Shown here in pieces: positions 4,698 through 20,494 of a DNA stretch of 41,257 bases (the first letter of the stretch is position 1; each line of letters opens with the position of its first letter). The stretch lies in the NCBI GenBank assembly GCA_029219885.1, contig JAQXUH010000089.1, forward strand, positions 1 to 41,257, written 5' to 3'. The notes beneath the pieces are model-generated. The model was not told the origin of the DNA. It made no database searches and worked only from the letters and a program-made list of their open reading frames with translations. Source of the DNA: Eubacteriales bacterium. GTDB taxonomy: Bacteria; Bacillota; Clostridia; Oscillospirales; Acutalibacteraceae. The position numbers and the translations under genes were made by a program.

Positions 4698-5086
4698 TGG
4701 TTTCCACAAAGGGCAGGTACGCTCTCAGAATTATGATTGACCTTGCCGAAAACGGACAGAACAGTCCTGTTTCTCTCAAGGATATTGCCGAGAGAGAGGA
4801 TATAGGAATTAAATATCTCGAAATCATTGTGGCGTCTCTTAATAAAAACGGACTTCTTGAAAGCGTAAGAGGTAAAAACGGCGGATATAAACTCAACAAG
4901 CGACCTGAGGAATATTCAATTTCTTCAATACTCAATGCAGCAGAGGGAAGTCTCGCTCCTGTTGCCTGTGTTGAAACTGACAGCTGTGAAAATGCTCATT
5001 GCTGTAAAACCTACACTCTGTGGAAAGAGCTTGATGATGTTATTGAAAATTTCCTTTCTTCCAAAACATTAGCTGATATAATTTGA
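4694..5086 (+). CDS. Rrf2/IscR-family transcriptional regulator
   Basis: 130-aa winged-helix regulator. The N-terminus MMVSTKGRYALRIMIDLAEN and the helix-turn-helix region SLKDIAEREDIGIKYLEIIV are typical of Rrf2 proteins. The C-terminal half carries Cys92, Cys98, Cys103 and Cys104; the first, second and last coincide with the Fe-S ligands of E. coli IscR (92, 98, 104), while the IscR histidine 107 is Tyr here. This suggests an iron-sulphur or redox sensor rather than a cysteine-free CymR type. ATG overlaps the metH stop by 4 nt (ATGA), with GAGGTGA (4681-4687) inside metH. Position in the methionine operon suggests control of sulphur or one-carbon genes, but targets are unknown. Confidence 0.88.
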   Translation: MMVSTKGRYALRIMIDLAENGQNSPVSLKDIAEREDIGIKYLEIIVASLNKNGLLESVRGKNGGYKLNKRPEEYSISSILNAAEGSLAPVACVETDSCENAHCCKTYTLWKELDDVIENFLSSKTLADII

Positions 5087-5095
5087 GGTATTTGT

Positions 5096-6118
5096 ATGGA
5101 ATATGATAATAAAAAATTCAAGGATGAATTTATAAGTATTATTAAAAGCGAAAGCCCTTCAAATATTCTTTTCGTTTCAAGCAAGGAATATGACCGATAC
5201 GGTTACAGACAGGCACTTGACGAAAACGGCTTTAAGTCAGTTGCTTTTACGGAATTTGAGCCTTGCCCTGAGGTGAGCTCTGTTAATAAAGGCATTGATG
5301 TTATGAAAGATGAAAACTGCGATTTTATCGTTGCAGTAGGCGGCGGAAGTGCTATGGATGTTGCCAAGGGAATTAAATATTATTCTCAGGCTGATATTAA
5401 AATTCTTGCCGTTCCCACAACTGCCGGCACAGGAGCAGAGGTAACTCGCTTTGCCGTTCTTTACAACAATGCCGACAAGCAGTCTGTAAGAAGCTTTGAC
5501 ATTATTCCCGAATATCAGGTGTTTGACTTCACCACGCTGAAATCTCTTCCTTTTAATCAAAGAGTAGTAACTGCTCTTGATGCGTTCTGCCACAGCGTCG
5601 AGGCGTATTGGTCAAAGAACGCAACAGACGAAAGCAGAGATTATTCAGCCGAGGCTCTTGAGCTTTTTGCTGATAATTTTGAGAGATTTTTAGATGATGA
5701 CGCAGATACATATGAGCCCATGATGAAATGCAGTGAGCTTGCAGGCAGAGCAATCAATATTGCACAGACAACCTCTCCTCACGCTTTCAGCTACAAGCTC
5801 CATAAGCTTAAGGGCTTTTATCACGGACAGGCGGTTGCTGTATGTCTTGCGTATATCTGGAAATATATGCTTGAAAATTGTCCCACAGCAGAGCTTGAAA
5901 TTCTCTTGGCGGAAACTGAAGTGATAACAGGCTTTACACCTGACAGCTTTATTTCACTTCTTGAAAAGTATCATCTGACCGACAATCTTAATATGACGGC
6001 GGCGGAATTTGACGAAACCGTAAACGGTGTAAATATCGACCGTATTGCAAATAATCCTATGCCGTTTACTGCCGAGGATATTAAAAATATTTACTCCTCA
6101 TTTATTACAGTAGAATAA
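5096..6118 (+). CDS. Iron-containing alcohol dehydrogenase, phosphonoacetaldehyde-reductase-like
   Basis: 340-aa group III (Fe-dependent) NAD(P)H alcohol dehydrogenase. Seen: cofactor loop VGGGSAMDVAKG (82-92), PTTAGTGAEVT (107-117), metal ligands Asp162 and His166 in DAFCHSVEAYW, and two further histidines in TTSPHAFSYKL and FYHGQAVAV. The combination FAVLYN, EAYWSKNATDESR and AINIAQTTSPHAFSYKL, plus short length, recalls the hydroxyethylphosphonate dehydrogenase (phosphonoacetaldehyde reductase) subgroup, but no PEP mutase or other phosphonate gene is in the window, so the substrate is open. Starts 9 nt after the rrf2 stop (SD TGAGGT); last gene of the metF operon, followed by a terminator. 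Confidence 0.85.
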   Translation: MEYDNKKFKDEFISIIKSESPSNILFVSSKEYDRYGYRQALDENGFKSVAFTEFEPCPEVSSVNKGIDVMKDENCDFIVAVGGGSAMDVAKGIKYYSQADIKILAVPTTAGTGAEVTRFAVLYNNADKQSVRSFDIIPEYQVFDFTTLKSLPFNQRVVTALDAFCHSVEAYWSKNATDESRDYSAEALELFADNFERFLDDDADTYEPMMKCSELAGRAINIAQTTSPHAFSYKLHKLKGFYHGQAVAVCLAYIWKYMLENCPTAELEILLAETEVITGFTPDSFISLLEKYHLTDNLNMTAAEFDETVNGVNIDRIANNPMPFTAEDIKNIYSSFITVE

Positions 6119-6124
6119 TTTTTT

Positions 6125-6154
6125 AAGCCTTCTCAATTCGGGAAGGCTTGTTTT
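6125..6154 (+). terminator. Intrinsic terminator after the metF-adh operon
   Basis: 8-bp stem AAGCCTTC/GAAGGCTT (6125-6132 with 6142-6149), 9-nt loop, then GTTTTG. Confidence 0.65.
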
Positions 6155-6184
6155 GTGTCATTATCTGTTTTTCATACATATAAT
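6155..6184 (+). promoter_or_regulatory. Possible asnB promoter with very short leader
   Basis: TATAAT at 6179-6184 with a partial -35 GTGTCA at 6155-6160 (18-bp spacer). The start would fall near 6191, inside the ribosome site, leaving only about 11 nt of leader. Confidence 0.4.
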
Positions 6185-6201
6185 ATTCAGAGGTGACTTA
6201 T

Positions 6202-8025
6202 ATGTGCGGAATAGCAGGAATTATATCAAGTGACATAGATTTAAGAGGCGAAAAGCCACTTGTAGAAAAAATCAGCGACACTCTTAAAATGCGAGGTCCT
6301 GACGCAAAGGGTGAGTATATCACCGCCGATACCGCTTTGATTCACAGACGGCTTTCTGTAATTGATGTTGAGCGAGGAGCCCAGCCAATGAGTTTCGGCA
6401 AATATGTAATTGTATACAATGGTGAGCTTTATAATACTGATGAGGTCAGGGATGAGCTTAAATCTTTCGGCTACACCTTTGAAACTCATTGCGATACAGA
6501 GGTTGTGCTGAAAGCCTATGACAAATGGAAAGAGGACAGCGTTAAAAAGCTCAACGGAATATTTGCCTACGCAGTCTATGATAAAAAGGAAAAAAGCCTT
6601 TTTGCCGTTCGTGACAGAATAGGCGTTAAGCCGTTATTTTACAGCCAAAAGAAAAGTCTTTTTGCCTTTGCAAGCAGAATAAAAAGTCTGCTTTGCATAC
6701 CGCAAATCAGGAGCGTTGTAGGTGAAGACGGACTTAACGAGATATTTATGCTCGGACCTTCAAAAACAATGGGCAATGCGATTTTTAAGGACATTAAGGA
6801 GCTTGAGCCGGCACATTACCTGACCTATAAAAACGGCAGGCTTGACATAAAGCAGTATTGGTGCCTTACCGCTCAGGAGAATAACGAAACTGTCAAAGAG
6901 GCAACTGAACATACTTATGCACTTGTTAAAGACTCAATTGAACGTCAGCTCGTTTCCGATGTACCGCTTTCTGCATTTTTAAGCGGCGGTCTTGATTCGT
7001 CAATTATTTCAAAGATTGCGGCAGATAAATATGCAGAAAAGGGAAAGGTTTTTGATACCTATTCTGTTGACTATACTGACAACGATAAGTATTTTAAGAA
7101 AAGCCTGTTTCAGCCAAATAAGGACTCAGACTATATCGGTATGATGTCCGATTATATCGGCTCAAATCACCACAATGTTATTCTTGATAATGTTGCCGTT
7201 GCCGACGCTTTGGAGCAGGCGACAGATGCAAGAGGTGTGCCGGGCTTTGCCGATATTGATTCCTCACTTCTGCTGTTTTGCAAAGAGGTGAAGAAAGATT
7301 TTACCGTCTGCCTTTCAGGTGAGTGTGCCGACGAAATTTTCGGCGGATATCCTTGGTATCACAGAAAAGAAATACTTTTTGAGGACTGCTTTCCTTGGTC
7401 GAGAAGTACCGATGTCAGACGCAGTATTCTTTCTCCCGGCTTTCTTCCGAAAGGTGAGGAATACGCAAGAAACGCCTACGAGCAAACGCTGAAACAGACC
7501 TCCTATCTTGACGGCGAAAGTAATCTTGACAGGCGAATGAGGGAAATGTTTATCCTCAATCTCAACTGGTTTATGCAGACTCTTTTGGTGCGTAAGGATG
7601 TAATGAGTATGGAAAGCTCGCTGGAGGTTCGAGTTCCTTTCTGCGATTACCGTCTTGTGGAGTACGCCTACAATATGCCTTGGAGCATTAAAGCACTTGA
7701 CGGCAGGGAAAAGGGAATAGTCCGTAAGGCCTTTGAAAATGATTTGCCATATGAAATTGCCTGGAGAAAGAAAAGTCCTTATCCTAAAACCCACAATCCT
7801 GCATATTTTAAACGTGTATGCGAGCTTGCACAGGCTGTGTTTTATGACAGATCAACGCCTCTTTACGATTGGCTTGACCGTACTGCCGTTGAAATTTTGA
7901 TGAAAAATCCCGACTCCTTAACAGAGCCGTGGTACGGTCAGCTTATGCGTACACCACAGGTAATTTCTTACATTTATCAAATATATGTGTGGATAAAAAA
8001 ATACAAGGTTGAGTTTGAACTGTAA
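6202..8025 (+). CDS. asnB: Asparagine synthetase (glutamine-hydrolysing)
   Basis: 607-aa cytosolic enzyme converting aspartate, glutamine and ATP to asparagine, glutamate, AMP and PPi. ATG 6202 is chosen because it places the class-II glutaminase nucleophile directly after Met (MCGIAGII, Cys2), with AGAGGTGA just upstream; a GTG three codons earlier would bury it. Glutaminase domain residues: RGPDAKGEY, HRRLSVID, YNGELYN. Synthetase domain: PPi loop AFLSGGLDSSI and SGECADEIFGGYPWY. The C-terminal region holds VRVPFCDYRLVEYAYNMPW, as in AsnB. Monocistronic, with a terminator directly after it. Confidence 0.93.
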   Translation: MCGIAGIISSDIDLRGEKPLVEKISDTLKMRGPDAKGEYITADTALIHRRLSVIDVERGAQPMSFGKYVIVYNGELYNTDEVRDELKSFGYTFETHCDTEVVLKAYDKWKEDSVKKLNGIFAYAVYDKKEKSLFAVRDRIGVKPLFYSQKKSLFAFASRIKSLLCIPQIRSVVGEDGLNEIFMLGPSKTMGNAIFKDIKELEPAHYLTYKNGRLDIKQYWCLTAQENNETVKEATEHTYALVKDSIERQLVSDVPLSAFLSGGLDSSIISKIAADKYAEKGKVFDTYSVDYTDNDKYFKKSLFQPNKDSDYIGMMSDYIGSNHHNVILDNVAVADALEQATDARGVPGFADIDSSLLLFCKEVKKDFTVCLSGECADEIFGGYPWYHRKEILFEDCFPWSRSTDVRRSILSPGFLPKGEEYARNAYEQTLKQTSYLDGESNLDRRMREMFILNLNWFMQTLLVRKDVMSMESSLEVRVPFCDYRLVEYAYNMPWSIKALDGREKGIVRKAFENDLPYEIAWRKKSPYPKTHNPAYFKRVCELAQAVFYDRSTPLYDWLDRTAVEILMKNPDSLTEPWYGQLMRTPQVISYIYQIYVWIKKYKVEFEL

Positions 8026-14157: not shown

Positions 14158-14946
14158 GTGTTTGCAACGTTTGGTCCTTTAACAATGAAACTCGATTTGC
14201 AGCAGGAAATTCAGGAACAGCTCAATATCGAGGAAGTATTCAGCTTTAATATCGGCGGTGTTAAAATCGGCATTGACGAATCTACTGTAGTATCGTGGAT
14301 AATTATGGCTGTACTGACTGTCCTTGCTATTATCCTTACTCGCAATTTTAAGGTGACAGGTGAGATTAGCAGACGGCAGGCATTTATGGAGATGATTTAC
14401 GAAAAGTCTGTTGACTTTTTCAAGGGCATTATGGGTCCTAAAGCATATAGGTATATACCGTGGCTTATGAGTATGGCTCTTTTTATCGGTACATCTAATA
14501 TTATCGGTATGTTCGGTCTCAAGCCTCCTACAAAAAGTATGCAGGTAACTGCCGTAATGGCGATAACAAGTATTGTTCTTGTGGAGTACGCTGCTATCAG
14601 AGAAAAGGGATTCGTGGGCAGACTGAAAGCCTTTACAAAGCCTATGGCTGCCATAACTCCTATTAACATTATGGAGATTATAACAAAACCGCTTTCACTT
14701 TGTATGCGACTTTTCGGTAATGTTATCGGTGCGTTTATCATTATGGAGCTTATCAAGGCGGTTGTCCCTGTATTTCTGCCGGTAGTTTTGAGCCTGTATT
14801 TTGATATTTTTGACGGACTTTTACAGGCGTATATTTTCGTTTTCCTGACAGCACTTTACATTCAGGAGGCTGTTGAAACGGAAGAGGAAACTAAGCAGAG
14901 AAAAAGCAAGAAAAAGATGAGGAAAAGAAAAGCGAAGGCAGAGTAA
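14158..14946 (+). CDS. atpB: F1Fo ATP synthase subunit a
   Basis: Membrane subunit forming the proton half-channels against the c-ring. About five to six membrane helices; the essential arginine lies in PLSLCMRLFGNVIGAFIIMELI-type sequence near the middle-to-end (helix 4 of the family), followed by LQAYIFVFLTALYIQEAV. A very basic tail with repeated Lys/Arg follows. The start is uncertain: coordinates give the longest frame, but GTG 14158 lies on the SD AGGAGG (14153-14158), the next in-frame ATG is 14185 (26 nt past the SD), and ACG 14167 has ideal spacing. Length is 253-262 aa depending on start. First gene of the operon; no atpI is seen. Confidence 0.92.
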   Translation: MFATFGPLTMKLDLQQEIQEQLNIEEVFSFNIGGVKIGIDESTVVSWIIMAVLTVLAIILTRNFKVTGEISRRQAFMEMIYEKSVDFFKGIMGPKAYRYIPWLMSMALFIGTSNIIGMFGLKPPTKSMQVTAVMAITSIVLVEYAAIREKGFVGRLKAFTKPMAAITPINIMEIITKPLSLCMRLFGNVIGAFIIMELIKAVVPVFLPVVLSLYFDIFDGLLQAYIFVFLTALYIQEAVETEEETKQRKSKKKMRKRKAKAE

Positions 14947-14991: not shown

Positions 14992-15225
<234 letters not shown>

Positions 15226-15270: not shown

Positions 15271-15753
15271 ATGCTTAAATTTGACTGGAATATGCTTTGG
15301 ACTCTTATCAATTTGATAATTTTCTTTGTGCTGATGAAGGTATTCCTTTTTAAGCCTATAAAGAAAACTCTCGATAAGCGTAAGGAGCTCATTGATAATC
15401 AATTTAAAGAGGCTGACGATGCAAAGGCTGAGGCTGAAAATCTTAAAACGCAGTACGAGCAGCAGCTTGACGGCGTAGAGGACGAAAGGGCTCAGATTAT
15501 AGCCAAGGCACGAGAGGATGCAAAGGCAGAGTACGACAAGACTATTGACCGTGCCCGTGACGATGCACAGAAAATTAAGGATGAAGCGGCAAAGGCTGCC
15601 AAGCTTCAGACTGAAAAAGCAAAGCGTGCCGTTAAAGAAGAAATTGCTCAGGTTGCTATTCAGGCAGCTGAAAAGGTTGTGGGCAGAGAGGTTTCAGCTC
15701 AGACCGACAGCGATATCTTTGACGAATTTTTAAATGAAAGCAGTGATAAGTAA
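15271..15753 (+). CDS. atpF: F1Fo ATP synthase subunit b
   Basis: 160-aa peripheral stalk subunit. An N-terminal membrane helix (about 8-28, WTLINLIIFFVLMKVFLF) is followed by KPIKKTLDKRKELI and a long charged, Ala/Lys/Glu-rich helix that dimerises as a coiled coil and ends in a delta-binding segment. The stop codon overlaps the next ATG (TAATG, 1-nt overlap at 15753), so the fusion gene downstream depends on coupled translation; no SD is obvious there. Confidence 0.93.
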   Translation: MLKFDWNMLWTLINLIIFFVLMKVFLFKPIKKTLDKRKELIDNQFKEADDAKAEAENLKTQYEQQLDGVEDERAQIIAKAREDAKAEYDKTIDRARDDAQKIKDEAAKAAKLQTEKAKRAVKEEIAQVAIQAAEKVVGREVSAQTDSDIFDEFLNESSDK

Positions 15754-17783
15754 TGTTTGACATTGATGATTTAGTTAAAGCACTGCTTGCAAAGAAAGTC
15801 AGTGTTTCTGCTCTTGAGGAAGCAGAAAAGCTAATTCAATCTTCCGAGGACTTAAAGGAAGAACTTGACAGCCCATCTGTTTCGGAAATTGAAAAGGCGA
15901 GAGTTATTGACAGCCTTTTCTCCGAATCTGTTAAGGGCTTGATAAATACTATTGCCGACGATTGTAATACAGACGCTCTTGACGAGGTTTTAAAAGAATA
16001 CGTTAAGCGTATTGACGAAAAAAATAATGTAGTCAGGGCAACTGTTTTCTGCGTAACTCCGCCTACCGACGAACAGCTTGAGGGTATCAAGAAGTTTATC
16101 TGCAAAGAGAAAAAGGCGTCAACTGCCGAGGTTGAGGTAGTTAAAGATGAAAGCCTTATGGGCGGTTTTATTATTCAGGTCGGCAACAAGCAGTACGACA
16201 GAAGTATCAAATCAAAGCTTGAGCAGATTAAGGCTCAGGTTATTAAAAGTACAGAAAGCTCGGATGTTGATAACGATTCCGTTTTAGCTGTTCTCAAGCA
16301 GAATATTAACGATTTCAAGCCTGTAAGCGAAATGGACGAGATTGGCTCTGTTATTCGTGTAGGTGACGGTATTGCTGTAATTCACGGAATTTCACAGGCA
16401 ATGTACGGCGAAATTGTTGTGTTTGAAAACGGCGTCAAGGGTATGGTGCAGGATATTAAAAAGCACCAAATCGGCGTTATCCTTTTCGGCAGCGATGTGG
16501 GCATTCACGAGGGAACTAAGGTTTCCAGAACACATAAGAAAGCAGGCGTTCCTGTAGGCGAAGGCTTTATCGGCAGAGTAGTTAATGCTTTGGGTGAGCC
16601 GATTGACGGCAAGGGCGATATTAAAGCAGAAGGCTATCGTCCTGTTGAGCAGAAAGCTCCGTCTATCGTTGAGCGTAAAAGCGTTGATACGCCTATGGCT
16701 ACAGGTATTTTGTCTATCGACTCAATGTTCCCAATAGGCAGAGGACAGCGTGAGCTTATTATCGGCGACAGGCAGACAGGTAAAACTGCAATCGCTATTG
16801 ACACTATACTTAATCAAAAGGGAAACGGCGTTATTTGTATCTATAACGCTATCGGACAGAAAGCCTCAAGTGTTGCAAAGATTGTTAATACGCTTGAAAA
16901 GGCAGGTGCTATGGAATATACAGTTGTTGTATGCTCCACCGCCGCAGAGCCGTCATCACTTCAGTATATCTCGCCTTATTCTGCTACGGCAATTGCCGAG
17001 TATTTTATGCATCAGGGAAGAGATTGTCTTATTGTGTATGATGACCTCAGCAAGCACGCAGTAGCATATCGTGCCTTGTCACTTCTTCTTGAGAGAAGTC
17101 CCGGACGTGAGGCTTATCCTGGTGACGTATTCTATCTTCACTCAAGACTTCTTGAGCGTTCAAGCAAGCTTTCCGATGAATTAGGCGGCGGCTCAATAAC
17201 GGCACTTCCTATTATCGAAACACAGGCAGGCGACGTTTCCGCCTATATTCCTACTAACGTTATTTCAATTACCGACGGTCAGATTTTCCTTGAAAGCGAC
17301 CTGTTCTTCAGCGGTATGCGTCCTGCTGTTAATGTGGGACTTTCCGTTTCTCGTGTAGGCGGTGCCGCTCAGACAAAGGCTATGAAAAAGGCAGCAGGTA
17401 CTTTGAGAATTGACCTTGCACAGTATCGTGAGATGGAAGTGTTCACTCAATTTTCATCCGACCTTGACGATGAAACTAAAGAAGAGCTTGCTTACGGTAA
17501 GGGACTTATGGAGCTTTTGAAACAGCCCCAGGGCAGTCCTCTTTCACTTTCCGATATGGTAATTTCTCTTGTTGCCGCAACAGGAAGAAAGTTTGTTGAT
17601 GTTCCTGTTGAAAGCGTCAAGGACTGTCAGATGAAGCTTCTTGAATTTATCAACGAGAAATATCCGCAGATTCCGTCGGATATTGAAACCGAAAAGGTTT
17701 TAGAGGATGGTATGAGAGAGCAGATTCTCTCTGCGGCTGACGAATTTAAAAAGCAGTATAACAAAACAAAAGAGGCTGAATAA
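15753..17783 (+). CDS. atpHA: ATP synthase delta-alpha fusion protein
   Basis: 676-aa single frame joining two normally separate F1 subunits. Residues 1 to about 172 are delta (OSCP): a shortened N-terminal helical domain lacking the usual first helix, then the C-terminal domain with EVVKDESLMGGFIIQVGNKQ and DRSIKSKLEQIK. From about 175 to the end is a complete alpha subunit: VGDGIAVIHGI, Walker A GDRQTGKT (338-345), LLERSPGREAYPGDVFYLHS, and the C-terminal helical domain. No stop, frameshift or SD-linked start lies at the junction; the first in-frame Met on the alpha side is residue 194 (16332), without an SD. The gene overlaps its neighbours by 1 nt each side. Three alphas but one delta are needed per complex. 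Confidence 0.93.
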   Translation: MFDIDDLVKALLAKKVSVSALEEAEKLIQSSEDLKEELDSPSVSEIEKARVIDSLFSESVKGLINTIADDCNTDALDEVLKEYVKRIDEKNNVVRATVFCVTPPTDEQLEGIKKFICKEKKASTAEVEVVKDESLMGGFIIQVGNKQYDRSIKSKLEQIKAQVIKSTESSDVDNDSVLAVLKQNINDFKPVSEMDEIGSVIRVGDGIAVIHGISQAMYGEIVVFENGVKGMVQDIKKHQIGVILFGSDVGIHEGTKVSRTHKKAGVPVGEGFIGRVVNALGEPIDGKGDIKAEGYRPVEQKAPSIVERKSVDTPMATGILSIDSMFPIGRGQRELIIGDRQTGKTAIAIDTILNQKGNGVICIYNAIGQKASSVAKIVNTLEKAGAMEYTVVVCSTAAEPSSLQYISPYSATAIAEYFMHQGRDCLIVYDDLSKHAVAYRALSLLLERSPGREAYPGDVFYLHSRLLERSSKLSDELGGGSITALPIIETQAGDVSAYIPTNVISITDGQIFLESDLFFSGMRPAVNVGLSVSRVGGAAQTKAMKKAAGTLRIDLAQYREMEVFTQFSSDLDDETKEELAYGKGLMELLKQPQGSPLSLSDMVISLVAATGRKFVDVPVESVKDCQMKLLEFINEKYPQIPSDIETEKVLEDGMREQILSAADEFKKQYNKTKEAE

Positions 17784-18670
17784 TGGCTAATGCTCGTGAA
17801 ATTCAGGCAAGAATGAAGTCAATTAAGGACACTATGAAAATCACCAACGCTATGTGCTTGATTTCCTCCTCAAAGCTTCAGAAAGCCAGAAGAGACCTGA
17901 AAAATACCGAGCCTTATTTCTACGCAATTCAGGATGCACTTGCAAAAATTCTTGAGCTTTCTCCTGACGCAGGTAACATTTTCTTCGATGAAAGAGAGTA
18001 TTTACCGTCGCAGGAACGAAAGCAAGGATATATTGTAGTTACTGCCGATAAAGGTATGGCAGGTGCGTATAACCACAATGTTATCAAAATTGCGGAAAAA
18101 GAGGCTTTGTCCGATAACAAGAATATGCTTTTTGCTGTCGGTCAGGTCGGACGAAAATATTTTGAAAAAAAGAATATACCTATTGATATAAATTTTAAGT
18201 ACACGGCTCAGAATCCTAATATGAACAGAGCACGTATTATCAGCGAAAAGGTTGTAGAGCTTTTTAAAGAAAAAAAGCTTGACGAGGTGTATATCGTTTA
18301 CACCAGAATGGTAAATTCCGTAACCTTTGATGCGGAAATTGAACAGCTTCTTCCGCTGAAAAGAAATGTACTTCAAAATCAAAATGACCAGAACAACTAC
18401 GAATACTGTAATTTTGAGCCTGATATGAATACGGTGTTCAATCATATTGTACCCGATTATGTTGCGGGCTTCGTTTACGGTGCACTTGTAGAATCCTATT
18501 GCTCTGAGCACAACTCACGTATGATGGCAATGCAGACTGCCACCGACGCTGCAAAAGAAATGCTCAAGTCACTTGGGATTGAATATAATCGTGCAAGGCA
18601 GGCGGCAATCACTCAGGAAATTACCGAGGTAATTGCAGGTGCCAAGGCACAGAAAAACAAAAATGATTAG
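17783..18670 (+). CDS. atpG: F1Fo ATP synthase subunit gamma
   Basis: 295-aa central rotor shaft. The N-terminal helix MANAREIQARMKSIKDTMKI...SSSKLQKAR and the C-terminal helix with SRMMAMQTATDAAKEMLKSL and NRARQAAITQEITEVIAGA form the coiled coil inside the alpha-beta hexamer; a Rossmann-like middle domain contains VVTADKGMAGAYN. Start overlaps the fusion gene's stop by 1 nt (TAATG). Length is slightly above the usual 285-290 aa. Confidence 0.95.
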   Translation: MANAREIQARMKSIKDTMKITNAMCLISSSKLQKARRDLKNTEPYFYAIQDALAKILELSPDAGNIFFDEREYLPSQERKQGYIVVTADKGMAGAYNHNVIKIAEKEALSDNKNMLFAVGQVGRKYFEKKNIPIDINFKYTAQNPNMNRARIISEKVVELFKEKKLDEVYIVYTRMVNSVTFDAEIEQLLPLKRNVLQNQNDQNNYEYCNFEPDMNTVFNHIVPDYVAGFVYGALVESYCSEHNSRMMAMQTATDAAKEMLKSLGIEYNRARQAAITQEITEVIAGAKAQKNKND

Positions 18671-20071
<1,401 letters not shown>

Positions 20072-20080
20072 GGTGATTTT

Positions 20081-20494
20081 ATGAATACCTTTCAGCTAAA
20101 AGTAGTTGCGTCAAACAAAATCTTTTTTGACGGCAATGCACAAAAGCTCATTCTTCCGAATATTGACGGAGGATATGAGGGCTTCCTTTCACATCACGAA
20201 AACTGCGTTGTTCCTGTTGAAGCAGGCGGAATGAGAATTACAGATGAAGATGGCAAGGAAATCTTCGCTTTTATAGGCAGCGGATTCCTGGAGTTTTTTG
20301 ACAATTCTGCGTTAATCGTCTGCGTTTCTGCGGAACTTCCCGACGAAATTGACGAAAGGCGTGCAAGAGAGGCCAAGGAAAGAGCCGAGGAAGAAATGAG
20401 AGAAAAGCGTTCACAGCTTGAATATCATCATTCTCAGGCAAACCTTGCAAGAGCTATGGAGCGTCTTAAAGTCAAAAACCGTCATAAAATTTAA
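20081..20494 (+). CDS. atpC: F1Fo ATP synthase subunit epsilon
   Basis: 137-aa rotor subunit that couples gamma to the c-ring and can inhibit hydrolysis. N-terminal beta-sandwich with FQLKVVASNKIFFDG, EGFLSHHENCVVPVEAGG and FIGSGFLEF; complete C-terminal two-helix arm rich in Glu, Arg and Ala (about 88-137), so the inhibitory arm seems intact. Starts 9 nt after atpD with an AGGTGAT site; last gene of the operon. Confidence 0.93.
   Translation: MNTFQLKVVASNKIFFDGNAQKLILPNIDGGYEGFLSHHENCVVPVEAGGMRITDEDGKEIFAFIGSGFLEFFDNSALIVCVSAELPDEIDERRAREAKERAEEEMREKRSQLEYHHSQANLARAMERLKVKNRHKI

Follow-up and report, generated by a model that had tools for sequence, protein, structure and literature searches.

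Results

A delta-alpha fusion gene in an F-type ATP synthase operon

The DNA analysed here, called the window below, is a 41,257-nucleotide stretch of an Eubacteriales bacterium genome. It carries an ATP synthase operon in the order a-c-b-[delta-alpha]-gamma-beta-epsilon, with all genes on the plus strand:

14158..14946, + strand: atpB, a subunit (ORF, Pfam)
14998..15225, + strand: atpE, c subunit, 75 aa
15271..15753, + strand: atpF, b subunit, 160 aa (ORF, Pfam, NCBIfam)
15753..16028, + strand: delta N-terminal domain (NTD), residues 1-92, six helices, helix 1 short (PF00213, delta alignment, AlphaFold2)
16029..16259, + strand: delta C-terminal domain (CTD), residues 93-169, b2-binding by homology (PF00213, collinearity with PDB 9jc1_I, AlphaFold2 strands and helices)
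16260..16322, + strand: junction and alpha N-terminal helix, residues 170-190 (zone without in-frame ATG, GTG or TTG; helix 174-186 of low confidence)
16272..17783, + strand: complete F1 alpha, residues 174-676
17783..18670, + strand: atpG, gamma (ORF, Pfam)
18674..20071, + strand: atpD, beta (ORF, Pfam)
20081..20494, + strand: atpC, epsilon (ORF, Pfam)

Downstream of atpF, whose TAA stop overlaps the next gene's ATG, lies a 676-amino-acid ORF (15753-17783, plus strand) that begins with ATG and contains zero internal stops. Its first part matches the OSCP/delta family (Pfam PF00213) at residues 19-162 with 94.0 bits against a cut-off of 22.3 (profile positions 24-171 of 172), and both the NTD helices and the CTD of an F1 delta subunit are there. 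On the alpha side, three Pfam alpha domains at residues 195-665 all score above their curated cut-offs, and the NCBIfam atpA equivalog model TIGR00962 spans residues 174-669 (753 bits against 484.45, profile positions 4-501 of 503), identifying a full-length F1 alpha. ORF and family matches agree with an earlier sequence-only reading, which had seen delta and a complete alpha in a single unbroken frame between atpF and atpG; the delta-alpha fusion at 15753-17783 is real. The fusion ORF is also the sole PF00213 match in its own genome (1.89 Mb, about 86% complete). A search of that genome for Rnf found rnfC, which is compatible with an ion-motive anaerobe and proves nothing about stalks.

The fused delta subunit is modelled as whole

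The first helix of delta had been thought missing, and the Pfam delta match does begin at profile position 24. An AlphaFold2 model of the 676-residue chain (35 sequences; mean pLDDT 73.6, pTM 0.56) instead contains six NTD helices, at residues 4-13, 18-30, 32-39, 45-55, 61-69 and 75-90, with pLDDT of about 78-86. Across residues 1-160, where the NTD helices are modelled together with CTD strands and helices, pLDDT blocks range from 75 to 86. When 48 fused deltas were aligned with 32 separate ones, the helix-1 region of the window lineage proved shorter; separate deltas from the related clade (L131, L132, L148-L215) are likewise 7 residues shorter between helices 1 and 2, and the seven canonical separate deltas (L133-L139) are not. 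As modelled, then, the delta in the fusion is a whole subunit, with NTD and CTD. The junction is poorly ordered in the model (pLDDT below 50 at residues 170-172 and 177-194), and because of the low values at 177-194 the modelled placement of delta on alpha is uninformative. Fold comparison of the model aligned its alpha part, and PDB 9jc1, the engineered fusion discussed below, was not among the 50 matches listed.

The fusion is a clade trait

Among 36 other genomes of the genus, 28 carry the fusion: 23 have a near-full delta fused to alpha (three of these calls, G001, G006 and G009, being made from open-frame length alone), and 5 have only the delta CTD fused. The rest comprise 2 genomes with separate genes, 2 with cut or broken ones (G003, G012) and 4 with no delta match. 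In the order, at least 58 of the 394 genomes drawn, the window's own included, carry a delta-alpha fusion, with alpha above its cut-off in 204 of the 394; in the class, at least 36 of 391 genomes show a stop-free junction, a count in which G505 is scored as fused although its frame is 509 aa. The loci taken from the genus and order genomes leave out G019 and G020, places of G064, G003, G012 and G178, and a second place of G094. The sequence-only reading took almost all bacteria to keep the two genes separate, which may hold broadly but has these fused genomes of the order set against it. Eighty further loci were kept from sequence records, 57 fused and 23 separate. One fused record lies on a complete chromosome (AP018536, Lachnospiraceae bacterium GAM79), and others come from Butyrivibrio hungatei DSM 14810, Pseudobutyrivibrio xylanivorans DSM 14809, Agathobacter ruminis JK623, Oribacterium parvum ACB1, Shuttleworthella satelles DSM 14600, Faecalibacterium gallinarum JCM 17207 and Absicoccus porci. 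The earlier reading had asked whether the fusion is a clade trait or an artefact of assembly or sequencing; its recurrence in 28 of 36 genus genomes, in cultured strains and on a complete chromosome refutes the artefact and marks the fusion as a trait of the clade.

Operon architectures among relatives

Architectures were compared in 81 long loci (selected because their deltas are short or fused, 7 canonical controls included) and 20 loci of the genus. The fused operons comprise 42 with a delta CTD joined to alpha (in 4 of which gamma and beta share a frame), 24 with NTD and CTD, 14 with a b-deltaCTD-alpha triple fusion and 1 (L079, 5041-7068) in which two tandem delta CTDs, seen by Pfam as two delta stretches, are joined to one alpha. 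The separate ones comprise 10 with a CTD-only delta (including L130, placed here although its delta is 159 aa long with an NTD that goes unrecognised), 9 with a full delta and 1 (L118) in which Pfam finds b and a delta CTD in one chain.

The 14 triple fusions (L078, L081 at 4779-7010, L082, L087, L090-L092, L094, L096, L098, L099, L102, L106 and L108) form one branch (support 100) in a quick 180-row alpha+beta tree. In all 14 the N-terminus includes a hydrophobic segment (best 19-residue Kyte-Doolittle mean 2.0-2.8), and one other b gene, no more, lies alongside as a separate gene (b') of 138-152 aa. Pfam finds b, delta CTD and alpha domains in both of those examined (L081, L099).

These operons vary in other ways. 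Stand-alone CTD-only delta genes of 71-74 aa lie beside a separate alpha in L116, L119, L121, L124, L126, L129, L109 and L125; Pfam identifies the 72-aa gene of L116 as a delta CTD. One genome, G414, carries two F-ATPase operons of unlike fusion type, L071 (CTD-alpha) and L099 (b-CTD-alpha). Gamma and beta share one open frame of 645-802 aa in L110, L112, L115, L118 and L077, and all five genomes have a single gamma match. Translated literally as one chain, such a frame would link the rotor to the stator; by eye, all five ORFs have an SD-like stretch ahead of an in-frame start codon (ATG, GTG or TTG) where beta begins (weakly in L112 and L115), and the L077 beta has a frame break. In several CTD-only fusion operons (L061, L070, L076, L086, L107, L111 and others) the c subunit has a signal-peptide-like N-terminus and a spacer, often acidic, before the conserved part, and two adjoining c-subunit genes occur in the NTD-CTD-fusion operons L068, L205, L206 and L210, the last three titled Ruminococcus. 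In L151, L153, L171, L181 and L202 no standard start codon accompanied by a ribosome-binding site (RBS) is seen near the conserved N-terminus of the a subunit, whose gene may use an unusual start. The RBS strength of the a gene was considered as a sign of extra a-subunits, and fused operons did score higher, yet we dropped this reading because the a start is ill-defined in the separate-delta set, where several genes have no usable standard start.

Evolution of the fused delta

On the quick 180-row alpha+beta tree, which was built without L140 and has many weak branches, the fused or separate state changes at least 9 times, and the presence of the NTD among fused forms at least 11 times; fusion is thus a labile trait. 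A careful 37-row tree, built without L145, supports the genus (97/90) and places within it three NTD-less branches: L063 with L064 (100/100), L066 with L069 (96/88), and L065 beside L024 (89/94). We read these branches as losses, although the trees themselves give no direction of change and do not resolve whether fusion or NTD loss came first in the deep branches. Since all three are CTD-only yet fused, the NTD appears dispensable once fusion has taken place. Two genus genomes, L131 and L132, have separate delta and alpha genes, so fusion is not essential in the genus. They nest within the fused genus in the alpha+beta tree, and their delta falls outside the fused-genus deltas in the delta tree, which makes replacement of the upstream part as likely as a simple re-splitting of the fused gene.

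Where the NTD is kept, it appears to be maintained. At an alpha distance of 0.18-0.24, the NTD distance is 0.64 both in the fused genus and among separate deltas, which argues against faster drift of the fused NTD, while the CTD distance is 0.47 in the fused genus against 0.60 in separate deltas. These distances suggest that after fusion conservation is undiminished in the NTD and stricter in the CTD. The ratio of NTD to CTD distance is accordingly higher in the fused genus (1.36) than in other NTD-CTD fusions (1.12) or three sets of separate deltas (1.03, 1.10 and 1.06), because the CTD is more conserved. Ratios of dN/dS for the NTD are 0.05-0.29 in the 12 computable fused pairs of 15 listed, values that are rough since dS often exceeds 1, and they point to purifying selection on the NTD in the window lineage. 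An NTD that is under such selection and diverges no faster than separate deltas is no relic, and may well hold the enzyme at one stalk.

The junction offers few signals for making alpha alone

A Shine-Dalgarno (SD) match of at least 5 bases precedes 38 of 43 separate alpha starts against 10 of 138 fused junctions (NTD-CTD 4/48, CTD-only 4/75, b-CTD 2/14, tandem 0/1), the junction rows being related and their counts thus not independent trials. The junction rate (7%) somewhat exceeds the background of 2.8% in 1242 equal-sized zones within alpha. In-frame ATG, GTG and TTG are all missing from 62 of the 138 junction zones, the window's included. In 20 genus loci (L009-L030) the CTD was taken to end 4 residues before alpha; minus these, SD matches occur in 9 of 118 junctions and no start in 46 of 118. 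The zone scan bears out the earlier observation that the window has no SD-linked internal start and that methionine 194 comes first on the alpha side: the ATG at 16332 is the first in-frame start there, lies past the alpha N-terminal helix and has no SD match.

These counts bear on whether alpha is additionally made alone from an internal start, which would give fused and plain alphas in a ratio of roughly 1:2. The 10 junctions with an SD match speak for such starts, and in this operon family the in-frame gamma-beta ORFs show them by eye, but with no start codon in the window's own junction zone, a first ATG past the alpha N-terminal helix, and an SD signal that separate alphas regularly bear, we regard an internal start as very unlikely. 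Since start signals give separate alpha production no support, all three alphas should carry delta.

A protease might alternatively cut the precursor at the junction, releasing a normal alpha and a normal delta in excess. The junction has a variable sequence and low predicted order, as a cleavage site might, but its linkers are short: 4 residues in the window, with medians of 5 in 28 measured NTD-CTD fusions (range 2-22), 2 in 71 CTD-only fusions and 4 in 14 b-CTD fusions. The triple fusions would also have to be cut, and cleavage of NTD-less forms would free a mere fragment of about 80-110 aa, which could nevertheless function, since stand-alone CTD genes of 71-74 aa exist in other operons. 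On balance, we consider cleavage unlikely, if a little less so than an internal start.

Comparison with known systems

A search of solved structures with window residues 92-249 returned a sole chain at E 1e-20 or better, 9jc1_I, which is also the only junction-spanning chain among the matches listed. In the full-length search, residues 93-668 form one collinear stretch with it (E 2e-189), the linker differing by a gap of one residue. PDB 9jc1 is the deposit of Ueno et al. 2025 (PMC12229609) for an engineered Bacillus PS3 fusion of delta CTD to alpha, in which, as that paper describes it, every alpha is able to hold a b2 stalk and an a-subunit of its own, up to three. Reported values for this enzyme are 2.2-fold a and 1.8-fold b relative to wild type, an H+/ATP of 5.8 against 3.0, an equilibrium proton-motive force (pmf) of 68 against 133 mV in the condition shown, and cryo-EM particles with 0, 1, 2 and 3 stalks at 15, 51, 26 and 8% (PMC12229609). 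The same paper argues that the delta NTD, by its place on the symmetry axis, holds the enzyme to a single stalk, and names a natural NTD-less delta-alpha fusion in Acidaminococcus fermentans, with UniProt entries G4Q3K6 and A0A1I2C5T3. Judged by that description, the Acidaminococcus gene is likewise a natural delta-alpha fusion in Bacillota, but it is NTD-less and belongs to the class Negativicutes, whereas the window's fusion has an NTD.

The window shares with the engineered enzyme a delta CTD running straight and in frame onto the alpha N-terminus in one chain, and no separate delta gene is found in its genome, which is about 86% complete. The engineered chain is without delta residues 2-104, whereas the window retains the whole NTD; the NTD is absent in 5 other genus genomes. 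The multi-stalk build and H+/ATP are measured properties of the engineered enzyme.

In mycobacteria, delta is joined to b in one chain. The NCBIfam model NF009961 bears the name 'subunit B/delta'. That fusion resembles the window's in joining delta to a neighbouring stator subunit; because the partner is b, not alpha, it raises no 3:1 stoichiometry question. The window's b is a separate 160-aa gene, and the b-deltaCTD chain of L118 is of the general mycobacterial sort. N-ATPases are also F-type enzymes, described as having an operon without a canonical separate delta (Dibrova et al. 2010, as cited in PMC5709465). The window alpha scores 607.7 against a cut-off of 750.5 for the N-ATPase model TIGR03324, and beta-epsilon comes first in N-ATPase operons, in contrast to the order a-c-b-delta/alpha-gamma-beta-epsilon in the window.

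Among the matches listed from the open-licence PubMed Central literature, we found no paper on a delta-alpha fusion besides Ueno et al. 2025, and none treating b-delta-alpha triple fusions or a delta-alpha fusion with its NTD retained. The delta-alpha fusion is thus already known as a kind (Ueno et al. 2025), and a fusion that keeps the NTD differs from it.

Discussion

The copy-number problem raised by the sequence-only reading, that F1 needs three alphas and one delta, is a real 3:1 question, but a solution that it did not name is already known in the engineered three-stalk fusion. We propose that the window's product is an uncleaved delta-alpha chain giving each F1 three built-in clamps, a reading that we hold to be quite probable and keep apart from the number of stalks. 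As one polypeptide, the fusion would supply a delta with each of the three F1 alphas. Separated from the alpha N-terminal helix by about four residues, the delta CTD would dock on the alpha to which it is joined and form a b2-docking site, so that delta would act as a built-in stator clamp with no free delta subunit. By homology with the engineered PS3 enzyme, three clamps may permit more than one b2/a stalk per enzyme, and more stalks would mean more H+ per ATP and thus ATP synthesis at low pmf. We infer the lack of cleavage, the docking of a CTD on every alpha, the stalk number and the effect on H+/ATP; natural fusions are known from their genes.

How many stalks the window's enzyme would carry depends on its NTD. 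Only one NTD would fit the top axis of F1, making it a likely brake on stalk number, and NTD-less relatives would be set for two or three stalks; we know of nothing that would bar a multi-stalk enzyme in them. Since the window's NTD has been retained under selection, either one stalk or several would be possible, and we weigh the two about evenly. Within the fused product, a single-stalk enzyme would have one delta docked, its NTD on the central axis, and two deltas idle, with fusion acting as a nearly neutral tether. The axial restriction argued by Ueno et al. (PMC12229609) favours such an enzyme, as do a six-helix NTD that appears to be under purifying selection and its divergence at the pace of separate deltas; weighing against it, three genus branches drop the NTD yet keep the fusion, and two surplus delta domains per enzyme would probably be a standing cost. 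We give this form of the enzyme somewhat less than an even chance.

Judged from predicted domains, no natural form hints more strongly at an obligatory multi-stalk enzyme than the triple fusions, because in them b itself is bound to each alpha. More tentatively still, natural multi-stalk F-ATPases may be common in Clostridia, including those of gut and rumen. Delta-alpha fusion together with NTD loss would then be the genetic route from one stalk to three, with the window's genus as an intermediate, and the separate b-deltaCTD-alpha clade would be hard-wired, every F1 bearing three membrane-anchored b-b' stalks; we lean slightly against this broader picture.

F-type enzymes have been regarded as fixed at a single delta, stalk and a-subunit each, also by Ueno et al. 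(PMC12229609). If fused enzymes bear more stalks, H+/ATP and the lowest pmf at which ATP can be made would be set by the stator, and not by the c-ring alone. The operons described here form a series, comprising a separate full delta, a fused full delta, a fused CTD, a tandem CTD, a stand-alone CTD of 71-74 aa, b-CTD and b-CTD-alpha, that opens this question to direct testing in cultured Butyrivibrio, Pseudobutyrivibrio and Faecalibacterium.
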